In this document: positions 44,239-50,577 of the stretch, one piece after another | How the letters are laid out: each line of letters starts with the position of its first letter | How positions within the stretch are numbered: position 1 is the stretch's first letter | NCBI GenBank assembly: GCA_030431875.1 | Contig: JAUIIG010000020.1 | Span: 1 to 51,971, forward strand | Source: Alphaproteobacteria bacterium | GTDB lineage: Bacteria; Pseudomonadota; Alphaproteobacteria; Sphingomonadales; Sphingomonadaceae | Direction: 5' to 3' | DNA: 51,971 nucleotides | The notes under the pieces: generated by a model | What the model saw: only the letters and a program-made list of their open reading frames with translations | Databases searched by the model: none | What the model was told of the DNA's origin: nothing | Translations under genes and position numbers: made by a program

Positions 44239-44967
44239 ATGTCCATTCTTGAAGGCCGCGTTGCCGTCGTCACCGGAGCCAGCTCCGGCATTGGCGAGGC
44301 CTGTGCAGTCGAATTCGTCAACAAGGGTGCCAAGGTGGTGCTCGCAGCGCGCCGCGCGGAACGCCTGTCCGGCCTGGTCGAGAAGATCGAAGGAATGGGC
44401 GGTGAAGCCCTGGCCGTAACGACCGACGTCACTGACGAAGATGCAATCGCCAACCTCTTTGCCGAAGCGGTGGCGAAGTTCGGCGGGGTCGACGTCCTCA
44501 TCAACAACGCGGGCATTGCCGAGAACACTCCGGTGCACGAGACCTCGCTGGAGCACTGGCACAAGGTGATCGACACCAACCTCACCAGCGCCTTCCTCTG
44601 CGCCAAGCATGCCTGGCCGCTGTTCCTGAAGGCGGGCCACGGCCGCATTGTGAATATCGGCTCGATCTCGGCCAAGGTGCCGCGCAGCGAGTGTCCCAGC
44701 TACACCGCCAGCAAGTTCGGCCTGCAGGGCCTGACCCATGCGCTGGCTGTCGACGGACGCGATCACAACATCGCCGTGTCGATCTTCCACCCTGGAATCG
44801 TCGCCACCGAGATCATGCCGGGTTCGGTCAAGCTGCCCGAGAACTTCGCGGCAACGCCGGAAGAGATCGCGGAAGTCATCGTGCACATGTGCAACCTGCC
44901 CGACCACCTGAACTTCTACGAAGCGCTGGTGGTGCAGAACAAGCTGCCCTTCCTCGGACGCGGATAG
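44239..44967 (+). CDS. Short-chain dehydrogenase/reductase
   Basis: 242 residues. Cofactor motif TGASSGIG (12-19), NNAG (89-92) and the catalytic set Ser142/144, Tyr155 and Lys159 (YTASK) are intact, so it should be an active NAD(P)-dependent oxidoreductase. RRAER after the second strand favours NADP, tentatively. GGAGGAG lies seven bases before the ATG. It lies 48 bases after the citryl-CoA-lyase-like gene, and its stop overlaps the next GTG by one base (TAGTG), so they form one operon. Its alcohol or ketone substrate cannot be named. Confidence 0.92.
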   Translation: MSILEGRVAVVTGASSGIGEACAVEFVNKGAKVVLAARRAERLSGLVEKIEGMGGEALAVTTDVTDEDAIANLFAEAVAKFGGVDVLINNAGIAENTPVHETSLEHWHKVIDTNLTSAFLCAKHAWPLFLKAGHGRIVNIGSISAKVPRSECPSYTASKFGLQGLTHALAVDGRDHNIAVSIFHPGIVATEIMPGSVKLPENFAATPEEIAEVIVHMCNLPDHLNFYEALVVQNKLPFLGRG

Positions 44968-46118
44968 TGGCTGGCGAAACGCTCGGCTGTTTCAATATTG
45001 CCGACCTGGCGGCCAAAGCGCGTCGCCGGTTGCCCAAAGGCGTGTGGGAATACCTTGAGCGCGGGGTCGAGGACGAGACCGGCATGGATCGCAACCGTGC
45101 CGCTTTCGATGGCCTCACCTTCAAGCCCCGCGTCCTGCGCAAGGTCGACGAGATCGACATGCGCACCACGATCCTGGGCAAGGAAAGCGCCCTGCCCTTC
45201 GCCATTGCTCCGACCGGAGCCGCTGGCATCATGTGGTATCGCGGCGATCACGACCTCGCCAATGCGGCGGCCAAGGCAGGCATTCCCTTCTGCATTTCCA
45301 GCGCCAGCACGATGGACGTGGAGGACTTCGCCGGGATTGGCGGACGGCTCTGGTTCCAGCTGTACATGTGGGAGAACCGTGAGCTCTCCTACGACGTGGT
45401 TCGGCGGGCCGAAGCCGTGGGCTGCGACACGCTGTTCGTGACGCTCGACCTGCCGGTGCCGCCAAACCGCGAATACCTGGCCCACAACGGGTTCGGCATG
45501 CCGTTCGGGTTCAATCACAAGAACGTGACCGATGTCATGCTCCACCCGCGCTGGCTGGCGGGCGTGATCGGCAGATATATGCTGAACGGCGGCATCCCCA
45601 AGCAAGCCAACCTGCCCAAGGCGATGAAGAACTCCGTCATGCGCGGAGCCAAACCGGGGGCATTGTTCAAGCAGGACGATCTAGACTGGGACGGTATCAG
45701 GCGGCTGCGGGATCTTTGGAAGGGTCAGTTCATCCTGAAAGGCATGCTACATCCCGAAGATGCCCGCATGGCGCTGGAAGCAGGCGCGGACGGCATCGTG
45801 GTCTCCAACCACGGAGCGCGCTCGCTCGATCATTCGGTCGCGGCCATTGACGCCCTGCCCGACATCGTCGCCCAGGTTGGCGGCAAGATGACCGTCTTCC
45901 TCGACAGCGGCGTGCGGCGCGGCAGCGACGTGGTGAAGGCGCTGGCGCTGGGGGCTGACGCCGTCATGGTCGGCCGCGCTACGCTCTACGGGCTGGCCGC
46001 GGCAGGTGAGCCGGGCGTTGCGCGCGCCATCGACCTGCTCGGCAGCGAGGTTTCGCGCACCATGGCCATGCTCGGCCTGTGCAGTGTGGGCGAGATAGAC
46101 GCCAGTGCCCTCGCCTAG
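44967..46118 (+). CDS. FMN-dependent alpha-hydroxy-acid oxidase/dehydrogenase
   Basis: 383 residues from the GTG at 44967. The family start IADLAAKARRRLPKGVWEYL, the FMN-site FAIAPTGAAGIMWYRGD, and catalytic His282 in VSNHGARSLDHS followed by FLDSGVRRGSDVVKALALGA are clear. The usual SNHGGRQLD is SNHGARSLD here, as in some lactate/mandelate-type enzymes. It oxidises a 2-hydroxy acid to a 2-oxo acid. The partner SDR and CoA genes suggest a catabolic role. An FMN enzyme this close to the rib genes may be coincidence. Confidence 0.9.
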   Translation: MAGETLGCFNIADLAAKARRRLPKGVWEYLERGVEDETGMDRNRAAFDGLTFKPRVLRKVDEIDMRTTILGKESALPFAIAPTGAAGIMWYRGDHDLANAAAKAGIPFCISSASTMDVEDFAGIGGRLWFQLYMWENRELSYDVVRRAEAVGCDTLFVTLDLPVPPNREYLAHNGFGMPFGFNHKNVTDVMLHPRWLAGVIGRYMLNGGIPKQANLPKAMKNSVMRGAKPGALFKQDDLDWDGIRRLRDLWKGQFILKGMLHPEDARMALEAGADGIVVSNHGARSLDHSVAAIDALPDIVAQVGGKMTVFLDSGVRRGSDVVKALALGADAVMVGRATLYGLAAAGEPGVARAIDLLGSEVSRTMAMLGLCSVGEIDASALA

Positions 46119-47088
46119 GTTGCGCCTCCGGCCTGCCCTGCTCGCGCTAGCGGCGCTGATCTGGGCACCGGCTGCACATGCCCAGGGCTGGGCCGAAGTC
46201 GAGGAGCAGGACCTGCGCCTGGCCCGTGTGGCCGAGCGAATCATGGTCGCCAATGTTGCGCTGTGTAACCAGACCATGCCGATCACCGGCCTGATCCTCC
46301 ACAGCGCAGACCAATACGGCGATGGCGTGGCGGACAATCGCTTTGCCAACGGCCAGCTGGCCATCGCATCATTGCTGCCCGGTTCGGTGGCCGCCAGTGC
46401 GGGTTTGCAGCGCGACGATGCGATTGTCGCGATCAACGGCGTGGCCACCGCCAACCTCGAACCGCAGCCCGACGGCCACCTGCGTGAAGCGGCATTTGCC
46501 GTACTGGCAGACTCTTCTGAAGCGCGCGCGGTGACGCTTTCGGTGCAGCGGGACGGGCAAGTCATTCCCGTTTCGCTCGATGGTCCGCGCGGTTGCCGGT
46601 CGCTGGTGGAAATACTGCTGGGTGACGGGCCCAATGCGCGATCGGACGGGCGGATCATCCAGCTGCGTTATGACTTCGCGCAGAGCCTTTCCGACGATCA
46701 GCTGGCAGTGGCCTTCGCCCACGAGCTGGCCCACACCGTGCTCGAACATCGTCGCCGCAAGACCGAGGCGGGTATCGACAACAGCACTTTGCTCGCCAAC
46801 CTCGGCCGCCACCGGCTCGCCAATCGACAGGCCGAGGTCGAGGCAGACCGCCTTTCGATCCACCTGCTGGCCAATGCCGGCTACGATCCGGGAATCGTCG
46901 AGCAATTCTGGCATTCCGATGCGGGCACAAGGGCCAATGGCACCATGCCCAGCTTCATCTACCCGTCTACTGGCTCGCGCGCTGACATCGTGGCGCAGGA
47001 AGTGCGCCGTTACCTGCCGCTGCAGCGCGGACCGACGTGGCCGGGCCACCTGCTGGAATGGCGGGAACGCGGATTTGCTGGCGACTAG
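46105..47088 (+). CDS. Secreted PDZ-M48 metallopeptidase
   Basis: 327 residues from a GTG, overlapping the oxidase gene by 14 bases. It has a signal peptide (to about residue 26, AAHAQ). A PDZ-like segment lies at about 85-160 (IASLLPGSVAASAGLQRDDAI...AINGVATANL). The M48 zinc motif HELAH (206-210) and third-ligand helix EVEADRLSIHLLANAGYDP follow. It should be a periplasmic zinc protease, possibly in envelope quality control. Its link with the upstream metabolic genes is not obvious. Its TAG shares CTAG with the convergent flavin reductase stop. Confidence 0.87.
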   Translation: MPSPRLRLRPALLALAALIWAPAAHAQGWAEVEEQDLRLARVAERIMVANVALCNQTMPITGLILHSADQYGDGVADNRFANGQLAIASLLPGSVAASAGLQRDDAIVAINGVATANLEPQPDGHLREAAFAVLADSSEARAVTLSVQRDGQVIPVSLDGPRGCRSLVEILLGDGPNARSDGRIIQLRYDFAQSLSDDQLAVAFAHELAHTVLEHRRRKTEAGIDNSTLLANLGRHRLANRQAEVEADRLSIHLLANAGYDPGIVEQFWHSDAGTRANGTMPSFIYPSTGSRADIVAQEVRRYLPLQRGPTWPGHLLEWRERGFAGD

Positions 47089-47603
47089 TCGCCCGGTCGG
47101 TGCGGCGGTGCCTGACTGATGTCGATATAGTCCCGGTCAAAGTAAGTTAGCGGCGTGGCGTCCTCGCGGTGGCTTGCAGCCAGCAGTTCGCCGATGAAGA
47201 TCGTATGCGTGCCATAGCTGTGCCGATCCACCGTCCCGCACACCAGGCTCGATTGCGCGCTCGCCAGGACCGGGACGTCATGTTCCTCAACCCAATCACC
47301 CACGCCGAAGCGATCGCCGCCAGGCTGCATGAACTGTGCAGCGACATCGCGATTGCCCATCCCCAGTACGTTGACGCAGAACCGCTCGGCGCGCTCGAGC
47401 GGATCGTGCAGCGATGCTGAACGGTTGATGCAGACGAGCAGCGAAGGCGGCTCGAAACTCAGCGAACTGACCGCTGTGGCGAGAATTCCGTAGCTTTGCC
47501 CCGCATGCGTTGTGGTGACAGCATAGACTGTCGCGGCGACGTGACGCATCGATTCGCGGAAGGCCTCAACCAGTTCCGCATGGCTCTGTCCTACATCGCT
47601 CAT
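47085..47603 (-). CDS. Flavin reductase-like FMN-binding protein
   Basis: 172 residues from the ATG at 47603 (an in-frame start eight codons earlier is possible). Family features are FRESMRHVAATVYAVTTTHA, GILATAVSSLSFEPPSLLVC (FMN phosphate binding), FCVNVLG and HTIFIGELL near the C-terminus. Such proteins reduce free FMN/FAD with NAD(P)H, or supply a two-component monooxygenase; no oxygenase partner is adjacent. It is divergent from ribB and shares with it the 104-base region holding the AATGTGAT operator sites, so flavin-linked co-regulation is likely. Confidence 0.88.
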   Translation of the reverse strand: MSDVGQSHAELVEAFRESMRHVAATVYAVTTTHAGQSYGILATAVSSLSFEPPSLLVCINRSASLHDPLERAERFCVNVLGMGNRDVAAQFMQPGGDRFGVGDWVEEHDVPVLASAQSSLVCGTVDRHSYGTHTIFIGELLAASHREDATPLTYFDRDYIDISQAPPHRPGD

Positions 47604-47656
47604 GCCGACTATTTGCGGCCTGCCCAATCGTGGCGCAAGAGGGAATATGCCCAGCC

Positions 47657-47696
47657 AATGTGATCTTCCAGCCTTGCGATCACATTACAATGTGAT
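47657..47696. promoter_or_regulatory. Operator array between flavin reductase and ribB (three AATGTGAT half-sites)
   Basis: AATGTGATC (47657-47665) and GATCACATT (47678-47686) form a perfect 9-bp inverted repeat with a 12-base spacer. ATCACATT (47679-47686) and AATGTGAT (47689-47696) form a second perfect repeat with a 2-base spacer. TACAAT (47686-47691), a good -10 hexamer, lies in the centre of the second palindrome, 17 bases before the ribB ATG. A protein bound there would block the ribB promoter. The likely ligand is the HTH domain fused to RibB (inference). Confidence 0.72.
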
Positions 47697-47707
47697 ACAG
47701 GGTCGCC

Positions 47708-49009
47708 ATGAACGACATCACGATAGCCCGCGTCCGCGAAATCATCGCTGACGGAAAGATGACCCGCGCCGGCCTCGCCCGCGCTGCCGGTCTCCACGCC
47801 AACACCTTGCGCGACTGCACCGACGAGGGGTGGAACCCCACGGCAGACACCCTTGGCAAGCTCGACCGCTTCCTCACGGACAATGACGAGACTCCGGTCC
47901 TCGTCGGGATCGAGGAGATCATCCAGGAAGCGCGCAACGGACGTATGTTTATCCTCGTGGATGACGAGGACCGCGAGAACGAAGGCGACCTGATCATCCC
48001 CGGCCAGATGGCGACGCCCGATGCGATCAATTTCATGGCGACCCATGGTCGCGGCCTGATCTGCCTTGCCCTGACCCGGAGCCGCGTCGAGGCGCTGGGC
48101 CTCGAACTGATGAGCCGCAAGAACCGCACTCGGCACGAGACCGCCTTCACGGTCGCAATCGAAGCCCGCACCGGTGTCACGACCGGCATCAGTGCTGCAG
48201 ACCGTGCCCGCACTGTTTCGGTCGCCATCGACGCCAGCAAGGGCGCGGACGATATCGTCACGCCGGGCCACATCTTTCCTCTCGTCGCGCGCGAAGGCGG
48301 CGTGCTGGTGCGTGCCGGCCATACCGAAGCCGCCGTCGACATTTCGCGCCTCGCCGGCCTCAACCCCAGCGGCGTGATCTGCGAGATCATGAACGAGGAC
48401 GGTTCGATGGCGCGGCTGGAAGACCTGATCGGCTTCGCCCGCAAGCACGGCCTCAAGATCGGCACCATCCGCGACCTGATCGCCTATCGCCGCCAGAACG
48501 ACCATCTCGTCGAGAAACGCGAGGAGGAGCGTTTCGCCAGCCAGTGGGGCGACGACTGGCGCGCCATCGCTTTCTACAACACCGCCACCAAGGGCGAGAC
48601 GCTGGCACTGGTAAAAGGCCACATCGACCCCGAGACCCCCACGCTCGTGCGCATGCACGCGCTGTCGCTGTTTGACGACGTCTTTGCCCGCAAGGGCGAG
48701 CGTAGCGACCTGCTGCAGGCTTCGATGCGCATGATCGCGGAAGAAGGCTCTGGCGTGGTCGTGCTGATCAACCGGCCCGGCGCGGACTATGTCAGCAGCG
48801 CCATCCGCCGCCTGGCCAAGAAACCGCCTCGCGAAGACGATATGCCACCGGAGGAACAACGCGACTACGGCGTGGGCGCACAGATCCTGACCGAACTGGG
48901 CGTGCGCGACATGGTATTGCTCACCAATACCAGCCATTCGCTTGTCGGACTGGACGGCTATGGCCTGTCCATCGTAGGCGAACGTCCGATTGTTCTTGAG
49001 GAGAAATAG
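47708..49009 (+). CDS. ribB: HTH-RibBX: DHBP synthase with N-terminal XRE-like DNA-binding domain and degenerate GTP cyclohydrolase II domain
   Basis: 433 residues in three parts. Residues 1-60 look like an XRE/Cro HTH (MTRAGLARAAGLHANTLR, then WNPTADTLGKLDRFL). Residues 65-265 are 3,4-dihydroxy-2-butanone-4-phosphate synthase, with DDEDRENEGD (85-94) and AGHTEAAVD. Residues 280-433 resemble GTP cyclohydrolase II, but the three zinc cysteines are Ser320, Glu331 and Ser333, so ring opening of GTP is unlikely; this matches the RibBX type. It makes the four-carbon unit of riboflavin from ribulose 5-phosphate. AGGG lies five bases before the ATG. The operators upstream suggest self-regulation. 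Confidence 0.93.
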   Translation: MNDITIARVREIIADGKMTRAGLARAAGLHANTLRDCTDEGWNPTADTLGKLDRFLTDNDETPVLVGIEEIIQEARNGRMFILVDDEDRENEGDLIIPGQMATPDAINFMATHGRGLICLALTRSRVEALGLELMSRKNRTRHETAFTVAIEARTGVTTGISAADRARTVSVAIDASKGADDIVTPGHIFPLVAREGGVLVRAGHTEAAVDISRLAGLNPSGVICEIMNEDGSMARLEDLIGFARKHGLKIGTIRDLIAYRRQNDHLVEKREEERFASQWGDDWRAIAFYNTATKGETLALVKGHIDPETPTLVRMHALSLFDDVFARKGERSDLLQASMRMIAEEGSGVVVLINRPGADYVSSAIRRLAKKPPREDDMPPEEQRDYGVGAQILTELGVRDMVLLTNTSHSLVGLDGYGLSIVGERPIVLEEK

Positions 49010-49012
49010 CAG

Positions 49013-49432
49013 ATGGCCCGCTTCCTGATCGTTGAGGCTCGTTTCTACGGCCATCTGAACGACATGCTGATCGACGGCGCGCGGGGCGCCCTGCGCGATG
49101 CGGGGCACGAAGTCGACGTGCTCACCGTTCCCGGTGCGCTGGAAGTGCCGGGTGCCATCGCCATGGCGGCAGAGAGCGCCCAGTACGATGGCTTCGTGGC
49201 CATCGGGGTGGTGATCCGCGGCGAAACCTATCATTTCGAGATTGTTGCAGGCGAAAGCGCGCGCGCGATCATGGCGCTGACCATGGACGGCATTCCCATC
49301 GGCAACGGCATCCTCACCACGGAGAACGAGGAGCAGGCGCTGGTGCGCGCTGATCCGGCGCAGAAGAACAAGGGCGGCGAGGCTGCGCAAGCGGCCATGC
49401 GCCTGCTCGAACTGCAGGAGCAATTCCGATGA
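49013..49432 (+). CDS. ribH: 6,7-dimethyl-8-ribityllumazine synthase
   Basis: 139 residues, starting three bases after ribB. Family motifs are [15 protein letters not shown], the [18 protein letters not shown] strand with catalytic His74, and the C-terminal [16 protein letters not shown] helix. It condenses the RibB product with 5-amino-6-ribitylamino-uracil, the step before riboflavin synthase. RibB and RibH therefore work consecutively. GAGGAG lies upstream of the ATG within the ribB tail. The stop overlaps the aldo/keto reductase start (ATGA). Confidence 0.95.
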
Positions 49433-50388
49433 GCAACCACCCCGCAATCGCTGGTATCCCGCTGGTCCTCGGCGGCAACGTCTTCGGCTGGACCGCGAAG
49501 GGCGACGAGGGGATGGCCGTGCTCGACGCCTTTTACGAGGCTGGCGGCCGTATGATCGACACTGCCGATGTCTACTCGGCCTGGATCCCCGGCCATGTTG
49601 GCGGCGAAAGCGAAAGCTTCATCGGCGAATGGCTGGCATCACGCGGTGTCCGCAAGGACATGCGCATCCACACCAAGACCGGAATGCTCAGCAAGAAGCA
49701 GCCGCTTGTGCCGGGGTCGGCTGGCGATCCCGAACTCTACCAGCCGCAGGCGGTGCAGGAGCACCTTGCGGCCTCGCTGGAGCGGCTGCAAACCGACTAC
49801 ATCGACCTCTACTACGCCCATCGCGACTTTGAGGAGCTGGAAGTGGCGCAGATCGTCGAGGTCTTTGACGCCACGACGAAGGACGGCACGGTGAAGTCCA
49901 TCGGCGCGTCGAACTTCAACGCTGATCGTCTCAACGCGGCGCTGGCCCATGCCGACAGCACGGGCGCCCAGCCGTTCCGCGCGCTACAGAACGAGTACAA
50001 CCTCGTCGCCCGAAAGGCCTACGGCGAGGACCTGCAGGCCATCTGCGTGGAGCGTGGCATCGCCATGCTGCCCTTCTTCGGCCTCGCCGCAGGCTACCTG
50101 ACCGGCAAGTACCGCAAGCCGGAAGATTTCGAGCAAGGCCAGCGCGGCTATCGCACCAAGGACTACGCCGAAGTCGGTCCGCCCGTCCTTGCGGTGATGG
50201 ACGAGATCGCCGCCGATACCGGTGCCTCGATGCCCGCCATCGCGCTTGCCTGGCTGGTTCGCCAGCCCGGCATCCCCGCCCCGATTGCGAGTGCACGAAA
50301 CGTTGAACAGCTCACCGACTTGCTCGAATTCGTGTCGCTGGAACTGGACGAAAGCCAGCTGGAGGCACTGACCGAAGCCTTGGCCTAA
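49429..50388 (+). CDS. Aldo/keto reductase
   Basis: 319 residues. The catalytic tetrad is visible: Asp and Tyr in [10 protein letters not shown], Lys in IHTKTGML and His in YYAHRDF. The NADPH-binding C-terminal stretch [17 protein letters not shown] is present. The family reduces aldehydes and ketones with NADPH; the barrel looks complete. It is coupled to ribH by an ATGA overlap, yet an aldo/keto reductase is not a known riboflavin-pathway step. It may use the shared operon for flavin-related or stress reasons. It is the last gene before the 189-base operator-rich gap. Confidence 0.92.
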
Positions 50389-50489: not shown

Positions 50490-50512
50490 CAATCCTGAAG
50501 GCCATCACATCC

Positions 50513-50530
50513 GATCACAGTACAATGTGA
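50513..50530. promoter_or_regulatory. Near-identical copy of the ribB operator in the convergent gap
   Basis: GATCACAGTACAATGTGA matches GATCACATTACAATGTGA at 47678-47695 in 17 of 18 positions, including the TACAAT centre. The two copies are 2,835 bases apart, one at each end of ribB-ribH-AKR. Such a pair could support DNA looping, a second promoter running antisense to the gene at 50578, or a dispersed regulon site. Which of these applies cannot be told from sequence. Confidence 0.6.
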
Positions 50531-50566
50531 AACCGTAGGATTCGCAGTGTGACAAACCGTAGGATT
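50530..50566. repeat. 13-bp direct repeat AAACCGTAGGATT
   Basis: AAACCGTAGGATT occurs at 50530-50542 and 50554-50566 with a period of 24 bases. Each copy follows a TGTGA element (50526-50530 and 50548-50552), so the repeated unit seems to be TGTGA plus the 13-mer, with a two-base difference in spacing. It may be a duplicated operator module. Confidence 0.5.
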
Positions 50567-50577
50567 TCGGACCTGCC

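Follow-up and report, generated by a model that had tools for sequence, protein, structure and literature searches.

The riboflavin biosynthetic protein encoded close to the end of the window (the whole stretch of 51,971 nucleotides that was analysed) is in all likelihood its own transcription factor, acting as an autogenous repressor of ribB and ribH. The best reading of the genome comparisons is that such a repressor-enzyme is typical of most, but not all, Sphingomonadaceae in the GTDB sense. At the level of sequence, the analysis showed the fused architecture of the protein, an operator in front of its gene, the co-occurrence of operator and HTH segment, linked changes of the two, and the near-uniqueness of the site; the HTH nature of this segment, DNA binding, the geometry of the dimer and repression are what we infer from the sequences.

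The HTH-RibB-X protein

The gene (47708-49009, + strand), delimited from the ORF, Pfam and NCBIfam matches and a 34-sequence alignment, specifies 433 amino acids and ends in a stop codon. Its product comprises, in this order, an N-terminal XRE/Cro-like segment of about 61 residues, a RibB domain and a degenerate RibA-like domain (X domain). The RibB domain (47912-48487, +) matched PF00926 with an E-value of 2.8e-83 and TIGR00506 with 235 bits (cut-off 177.45). Among the 34 aligned sequences its GHTEA motif showed no variation and the DDEDRENEGD motif was invariant apart from one nearly invariant residue; judged by its motifs, the domain is apparently active. The X domain (48521-48985, +) matched PF00925 (E-value 8.3e-36) and scored 59.5 bits with TIGR00505, for which the cut-off is 205.85. 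When aligned with the RibBA protein 4i14, it was found to be devoid of the SECLTGD..C.CG zinc/catalytic stretch of true RibA. A separate, intact RibA is encoded on another contig (L002) by an ORF of 345 amino acids, which scored 213.9 bits with TIGR00505 against the same cut-off of 205.85 and keeps the SECLTGD...C.CG stretch. Taking into account that RibB is intact, that the RibA-like part is degenerate and that a separate RibA is present elsewhere, the 433-aa protein can be described as a RibBX with an extra head.

RibBX proteins, in which the fusion partner of RibB is a RibA-like domain that lacks GTP cyclohydrolase II activity, are known from S. oneidensis, A. salmonicida and Bradyrhizobium ORS285, and the A. 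salmonicida protein is reported to retain RibB activity only (PMC10012899). The protein of the window resembles them in combining RibB with a degenerate RibA domain, the GTP cyclohydrolase II being encoded elsewhere, and differs from them in its head and operator, as neither an HTH nor an operator is mentioned for the known RibBX proteins in the consulted passages of that publication (PMC10012899). Among the RibBX matches listed outside Sphingomonadaceae, all those spanning RibB started at this domain or close to it, at query residue 58 or later.

A conserved palindrome in front of the gene

Three identical half-sites upstream of the RibB gene had been pointed out in the initial annotation, and their coordinates proved to be exact: AATGTGAT occurs without mismatch at 47657-47664 (+), 47679-47686 (-) and 47689-47696 (+). 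The latter two together constitute a perfect 18-bp palindrome, ATCACATTACAATGTGAT (47679-47696), composed as ATCACATT-AC-AATGTGAT, which was recognized by sequence scanning and conservation and is referred to here as the main operator, O1. The distance from the end of O1 to the ATG at 47708 is 11 nt. The four-six-four spacing of CACA-N6-TGTG is the same as in the 434 repressor operator. The third half-site, detected by half-site scan, lies 14 bp upstream of O1; a half-site at a distance of 12-14 bp was present in 101 of 180 loci, compared to 4 of 360 control windows placed at different distances. The single 8-mer with up to one mismatch occurred 21 times, where 22.4 occurrences were expected. 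Since this frequency matches chance, a half-site alone proves nothing; rarity and conservation belong to the palindrome, not to the single 8-mer. The observation of three half-sites in front of an HTH-RibB gene was confirmed as real and far beyond chance.

A TTG trinucleotide adjoining O1 (47674-47676, +) was conserved in the alignment of 157 loci with a start-proximal palindrome (base frequencies 86, 63 and 70%), 5 nt upstream and on one side only. Because it has no mirrored copy, we read it as a promoter element, probably the -35 element, and not as part of the operator. A sigma-70 consensus scan of 47560-47760 found no promoter, and it is for this reason that repression by occlusion is something we infer. 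The hexamer TACAAT, previously taken for a good -10 element, did not hold up: it is not conserved in the aligned loci, because the two centre bases of the palindrome vary, and it gave no sigma-70 match.

In 127 of the 180 loci the palindrome ended 11-14 nt before the start codon. In 15 of the 180 the best palindrome was located 42-58 nt before the start, some of these loci having another half-site nearer to the gene. This minority has to be considered in connection with the alternative that the protein does bind its own promoter but activates or merely fine-tunes transcription, as half-sites situated upstream could recruit polymerase. The predominant location, adjoining the conserved TTG and in a position to block polymerase, argues against activation, which we regard as unlikely, and is consistent with autogenous repression.

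The operator accompanies the HTH segment

The presence of the palindrome was compared in pooled distinct loci, 182 with HTH and 25 encoding RibB or RibBX without HTH; the latter comprise 22 loci from Sphingomonadaceae and three (L110, L111 and L192) from other families. Up to three of the 182 HTH loci (G304-G306) entered the sample via the palindrome pattern itself. With up to four mismatches allowed, the palindrome was found within 100 nt upstream in 180 of the 182 HTH loci and, within 300 nt upstream, in none of the 25 HTH-less loci. The operator state thus tracks the HTH state in 25/25 loci without and 180/182 loci with HTH. The fewest mismatches per HTH locus were 0 in 41, 1 in 69, 2 in 41, 3 in 22, 4 in 7 and 5 in 2 loci, the last two being L198 and L162, which have no site at up to four mismatches. 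Mononucleotide shuffles of the same upstream stretches yielded 5 to 9 mismatches, never fewer than 5, and the best match in the 300 nt upstream of the HTH-less loci had 5 mismatches at a single locus and 6 to 9 at all others. Where the site was start-proximal (157 loci), CACA did not vary and TGTG was conserved to 98-100%, values somewhat inflated by the fact that the best match was picked in each locus.

Among genomes of the same genus, a palindrome with up to two mismatches was detected in 38 of 40, whereas the reversed control sequence gave a single site (G034). One of the two exceptions (G004) is 69% complete and has no RibB match; the other (G027) is 70% complete and carries a site with three mismatches. 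In the family as a whole, 244 of 249 Sphingomonadaceae genomes had a match to the RibB query, and among the matches listed all but that of G166 started within the first eight query residues. In the order sample the HTH was found in 117 Sphingomonadaceae genomes and was absent in at least 14, which shows that it is dispensable. A single ORF joins RibB to the HTH-like segment in these 117 genomes and in the 182 distinct loci.

Sixty-six RibBX sequences, from 43 of the 182 loci with HTH and 23 of the 25 without, were placed on a tree. The HTH-less sequences were scattered among those with HTH, and the tree required ten changes of the HTH label, at least six of the changes being forced by well-supported branches. 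Not all of these changes need be losses; transfers or old duplicates may account for some. In the genomes with both kinds of copy that were compared (G012, G020, G022, G030, G209 and G390), the operator was on the HTH copy only. Second, HTH-less RibBX copies in genomes with HTH-RibB were seen at L103, L104, L105, L108, L242 and L243, and some of them are very divergent. By a start-motif test, 16 of 25 HTH-less copies and 21 of 176 HTH copies were located directly behind ribE.

Specificity of the site in whole genomes

Allowing up to three mismatches, the palindrome occurs in the 2.96-Mb genome at two places, O1 and 50514-50531, both in the same gene cluster, and the reversed control gave no site in this genome. 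A search of 119 Sphingomonadaceae genomes with up to one mismatch identified 41 sites, at most one per genome, and none with the reversed control; the other 78 genomes have weaker sites or none. Thirty-nine of the 41 sites are directly upstream of HTH-RibB (34 by coordinates, 5 by sequence). Of the remaining two, one, in G009, lies within the rib cluster as the second site there, and one, near small unnamed ORFs, is outside any rib gene cluster (G076, L342:2372). In the 40 genomes of the genus six sites were found away from the rib cluster, each single and with two mismatches. A wide regulon was rejected, as nearly all sites are at ribB in the genome of the window and in the 119 Sphingomonadaceae genomes.

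Co-occurrence, linked changes on the tree and the near-unique site together lend strong comparative support to the suggestion made in the initial annotation that HTH-RibB acts on its own promoter.

The nature of the N-terminal segment

Residues 1-61 (47708-47890, +) were assigned as an XRE/Cro-like segment from alignments, Pfam and profile matches, and the assignment as an HTH is a probable one. LARAAGLH.N.LR and WNPT are near-invariant in this head, and the presumed recognition segment is nearly invariant across 89 members. Residues 1-64 of the window protein scored 18.3 bits with HTH_26, below the Pfam cut-off of 22. Of 89 homologous segments, 56 matched HTH_3, 51 HTH_26 and 44 HTH_31 at E<=0.1, the best HTH_3 E-value being 2.2e-5. 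A profile built from the 89 members hit three same-class proteins whose HTH_26 and HTH_3 scores lie well above the cut-offs, as well as a repressor with a Peptidase_S24 domain, which is above the HTH_26 cut-off. Matches to the head profile were obtained in 8 of 288 genomes of the class: the three strong ones were all in Sphingomonadaceae and the five weaker ones were separate regulators or small proteins. Among PDB sequences, a profile search for relatives of the head gave no significant match (best E 0.14).

One AlphaFold2 model of the full-length protein, computed from a 34-row alignment, was of low quality (mean pLDDT 69.7, pTM 0.52). It contains helices at 2-14, 20-26 and 46-58, but residues 31-38, expected to form the recognition helix, are not helical, at a local pLDDT of about 85. 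The missing helix counts against the HTH reading, though the model is poor overall.

The absence of a recognition helix from this low-quality model can be cited in favour of a different explanation, namely that a transcription factor encoded elsewhere occupies the palindrome and that the N-terminus of RibB serves another purpose, such as oligomerisation or protein contacts. The usual reader of an operator is a separate regulator, and the TGTGA/TCACA half-sites resemble those of CRP. For a riboflavin gene of Wolbachia, binding of two separate regulators to the promoter has been reported (PMC3518464). A CRP/FNR-type site was rejected, however: TGTGA-N6-TCACA was found in 0 of the 180 upstream regions. 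The explanation by a separate factor is also at odds with the presence of the operator where there is an HTH and its absence where there is none, inside one family, one genus (g110) and one genome, with the near confinement of the palindrome to the HTH-RibB gene, and with the match of the head profile to XRE-type regulators. Taken together, we consider a separate factor improbable, and prefer the reading that the HTH head itself would recognize the palindrome.

A third explanation, that the HTH is a fossil of the fusion whose function has been lost, might draw on the occurrence of HTH-less RibB in several lineages of Sphingomonadaceae. Comparison of 225 pairs gave pN/pS ratios of 0.289 for the HTH segment, 0.284 for the X domain and 0.117 for RibB. 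The HTH segment thus evolves faster than RibB, and its value, close to that of the X domain, indicates purifying selection on the head. This selection, the invariant residues in the 89 members and the retention of the operator alongside the head make a fossil hardly credible and are in line with a head that would still function as a DNA-binding domain.

Related heads were also observed in other contexts. Two small ORFs of 94 and 78 amino acids, L245:2949-3230 (-) and L250:1456-1689 (-), consist mostly of the same HTH type, and it is possible that they are related to the ancestor of the fused head. A CoaBC-like protein, a flavoprotein of coenzyme A biosynthesis, carries a related HTH head in L244:1991-3484 (-) and L246:2308-3819 (-). 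This HTH-CoaBC fusion was found in 2 of 29 genomes of a sister family; no operator-like match was present upstream of either gene, one of which is preceded by a weak AT-rich 7-of-8 repeat.

Neighbouring genes and a second operator-like site

The lumazine synthase gene ribH (49013-49432, +; PF00885) starts 3 nt past the stop codon of the HTH-RibB-X gene and is followed by an aldo-keto reductase gene. In 134 of 159 HTH-RibB loci ribH was present within 1.7 kb downstream. The two rib genes are probably co-transcribed. On the other side, a flavin reductase gene (47085-47606, -; PF01613) is oriented divergently. A divergent flavin reductase within 400 nt was found in just 62 of 176 HTH-RibB loci, on which ground the palindrome was rejected as this gene's own operator; the shared control of the two genes suggested in the initial annotation is likewise not supported. 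Further away, the gene at 44691-46118 resembles, by our reading of its sequence, an FMN-dependent alpha-hydroxy-acid dehydrogenase, and a relative of it occurred in 9 of 21 regions compared.

At the 3' end of the rib gene cluster there is a second operator-like cluster, O2, consisting of three imperfect half-sites (50504-50531). The O2 region (50504-50567) adjoins a duplicated AACCGTAGGATT element and is located between convergent genes. The site frequently reads ATCACAT-cgg-ATCACATTnnAATGTGAT, with a GTTGGATT-like element after it. A palindrome with up to three mismatches downstream of ribB was detected in 14 of 36 loci of the same genus and, outside the genus, in 1 of 59 loci. Within the genus its distance from ribB was 435-594 nt in five loci and about 1.4-1.5 kb in the nine others. 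Wherever loci were mapped, the longer distance coincides with an aldo-keto reductase gene, the site being placed after the last gene of the cluster. In the window the aldo-keto reductase gene occupies 49429-50388; in some genomes of the genus this gene lies between ribH and O2, and in others it is absent there. O2 could be an auxiliary operator for loop formation, a roadblock, or the promoter of another transcript.

Search for FMN riboswitches

RF00050 had no match in the window, in the genome it derives from or in 36 other genomes of the genus (weak matches could be lost), nor in 27 further Sphingomonadaceae genomes. With no match in the 64 Sphingomonadaceae genomes searched in total, an FMN riboswitch was rejected as the means of rib control here. 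FMN riboswitches were present in four genomes from other families of the order, and autogenous control may take the place of the riboswitch.

Discussion

The results can be combined into the following model. The RibB domain makes 3,4-dihydroxy-2-butanone 4-phosphate. DHBP synthases are established homodimers, and this domain should accordingly keep the protein in dimeric form. Two HTH heads of the XRE type would then face CACA-N6-TGTG, where the half-sites are spaced by one helical turn, and the third half-site, two turns further upstream, would probably be taken by another dimer or by one of its arms. Because O1 is situated just downstream of the TTG and ends 11 nt before the ATG, its occupancy should block RNA polymerase, leading to autogenous repression of ribB-ribH. 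Given that the operator is near-unique in the genome, control would be local. A ligand (substrate, FMN or GTP, perhaps via the X domain) may release or tighten binding, or the amount of enzyme alone may be sensed.

The X domain is reported to affect RibB in S. oneidensis by an as yet unexplained mechanism (PMC10012899); this effect makes it a natural candidate for the sensor. A wider and distinctly more speculative scheme can be drawn up, in which the dead RibA domain would sense GTP, FMN or a pathway intermediate and thereby switch the HTH-RibB dimer on or off the operator, the system would replace the riboswitch, O2 would form a loop in one genus, and the HTH-CoaBC fusion would point to recurrent self-regulating vitamin enzymes. 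We offer this scheme tentatively.

Enzymes fused to, or moonlighting as, regulators are known, as exemplified by PutA, BirA and RbkR; what appears to be new is HTH-RibB with its own operator. PutA and BirA are known to be under ligand control, and RbkR controls a regulon, not one target. Archaeal RbkR consists of an N-terminal HTH fused to a riboflavin kinase and is both a flavin enzyme and a gene regulator (PMC8305020). HTH-RibB, as predicted here, would likewise be a flavin-pathway enzyme with an N-terminal HTH that doubles as a regulator, but RbkR is an archaeal kinase, whereas no kinase domain was among the Pfam matches of HTH-RibB. PutA and BirA are metabolic enzymes that directly repress the operon of their own pathway and are classed as moonlighting or trigger enzymes (PMC6978683). 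The same kind of repression is predicted for HTH-RibB, which differs from them in pathway and fold. In other bacteria the FMN riboswitch (RF00050) exerts rib control through RNA, whereas the predicted control by HTH-RibB is protein-based. The titles and abstracts listed in our literature search, which covered mainly papers outside the subscription literature and, for two queries, the first 20 of 112 and the first 15 of 123 entries, contained no description of an HTH-RibB fusion.

To our knowledge, the control of rib genes in bacteria without FMN riboswitches is mostly an open question. A large environmental bacterial family offers a single-protein answer to it, with a defined 18-bp site and a possible role for the RibX domain. 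The system is simple enough for experiments on a single protein and a single DNA fragment, and lineages that miss the HTH and the operator together provide natural controls. If the reading of HTH-RibB presented here holds, an enzyme of vitamin B2 synthesis in these bacteria probably shuts off its own production.
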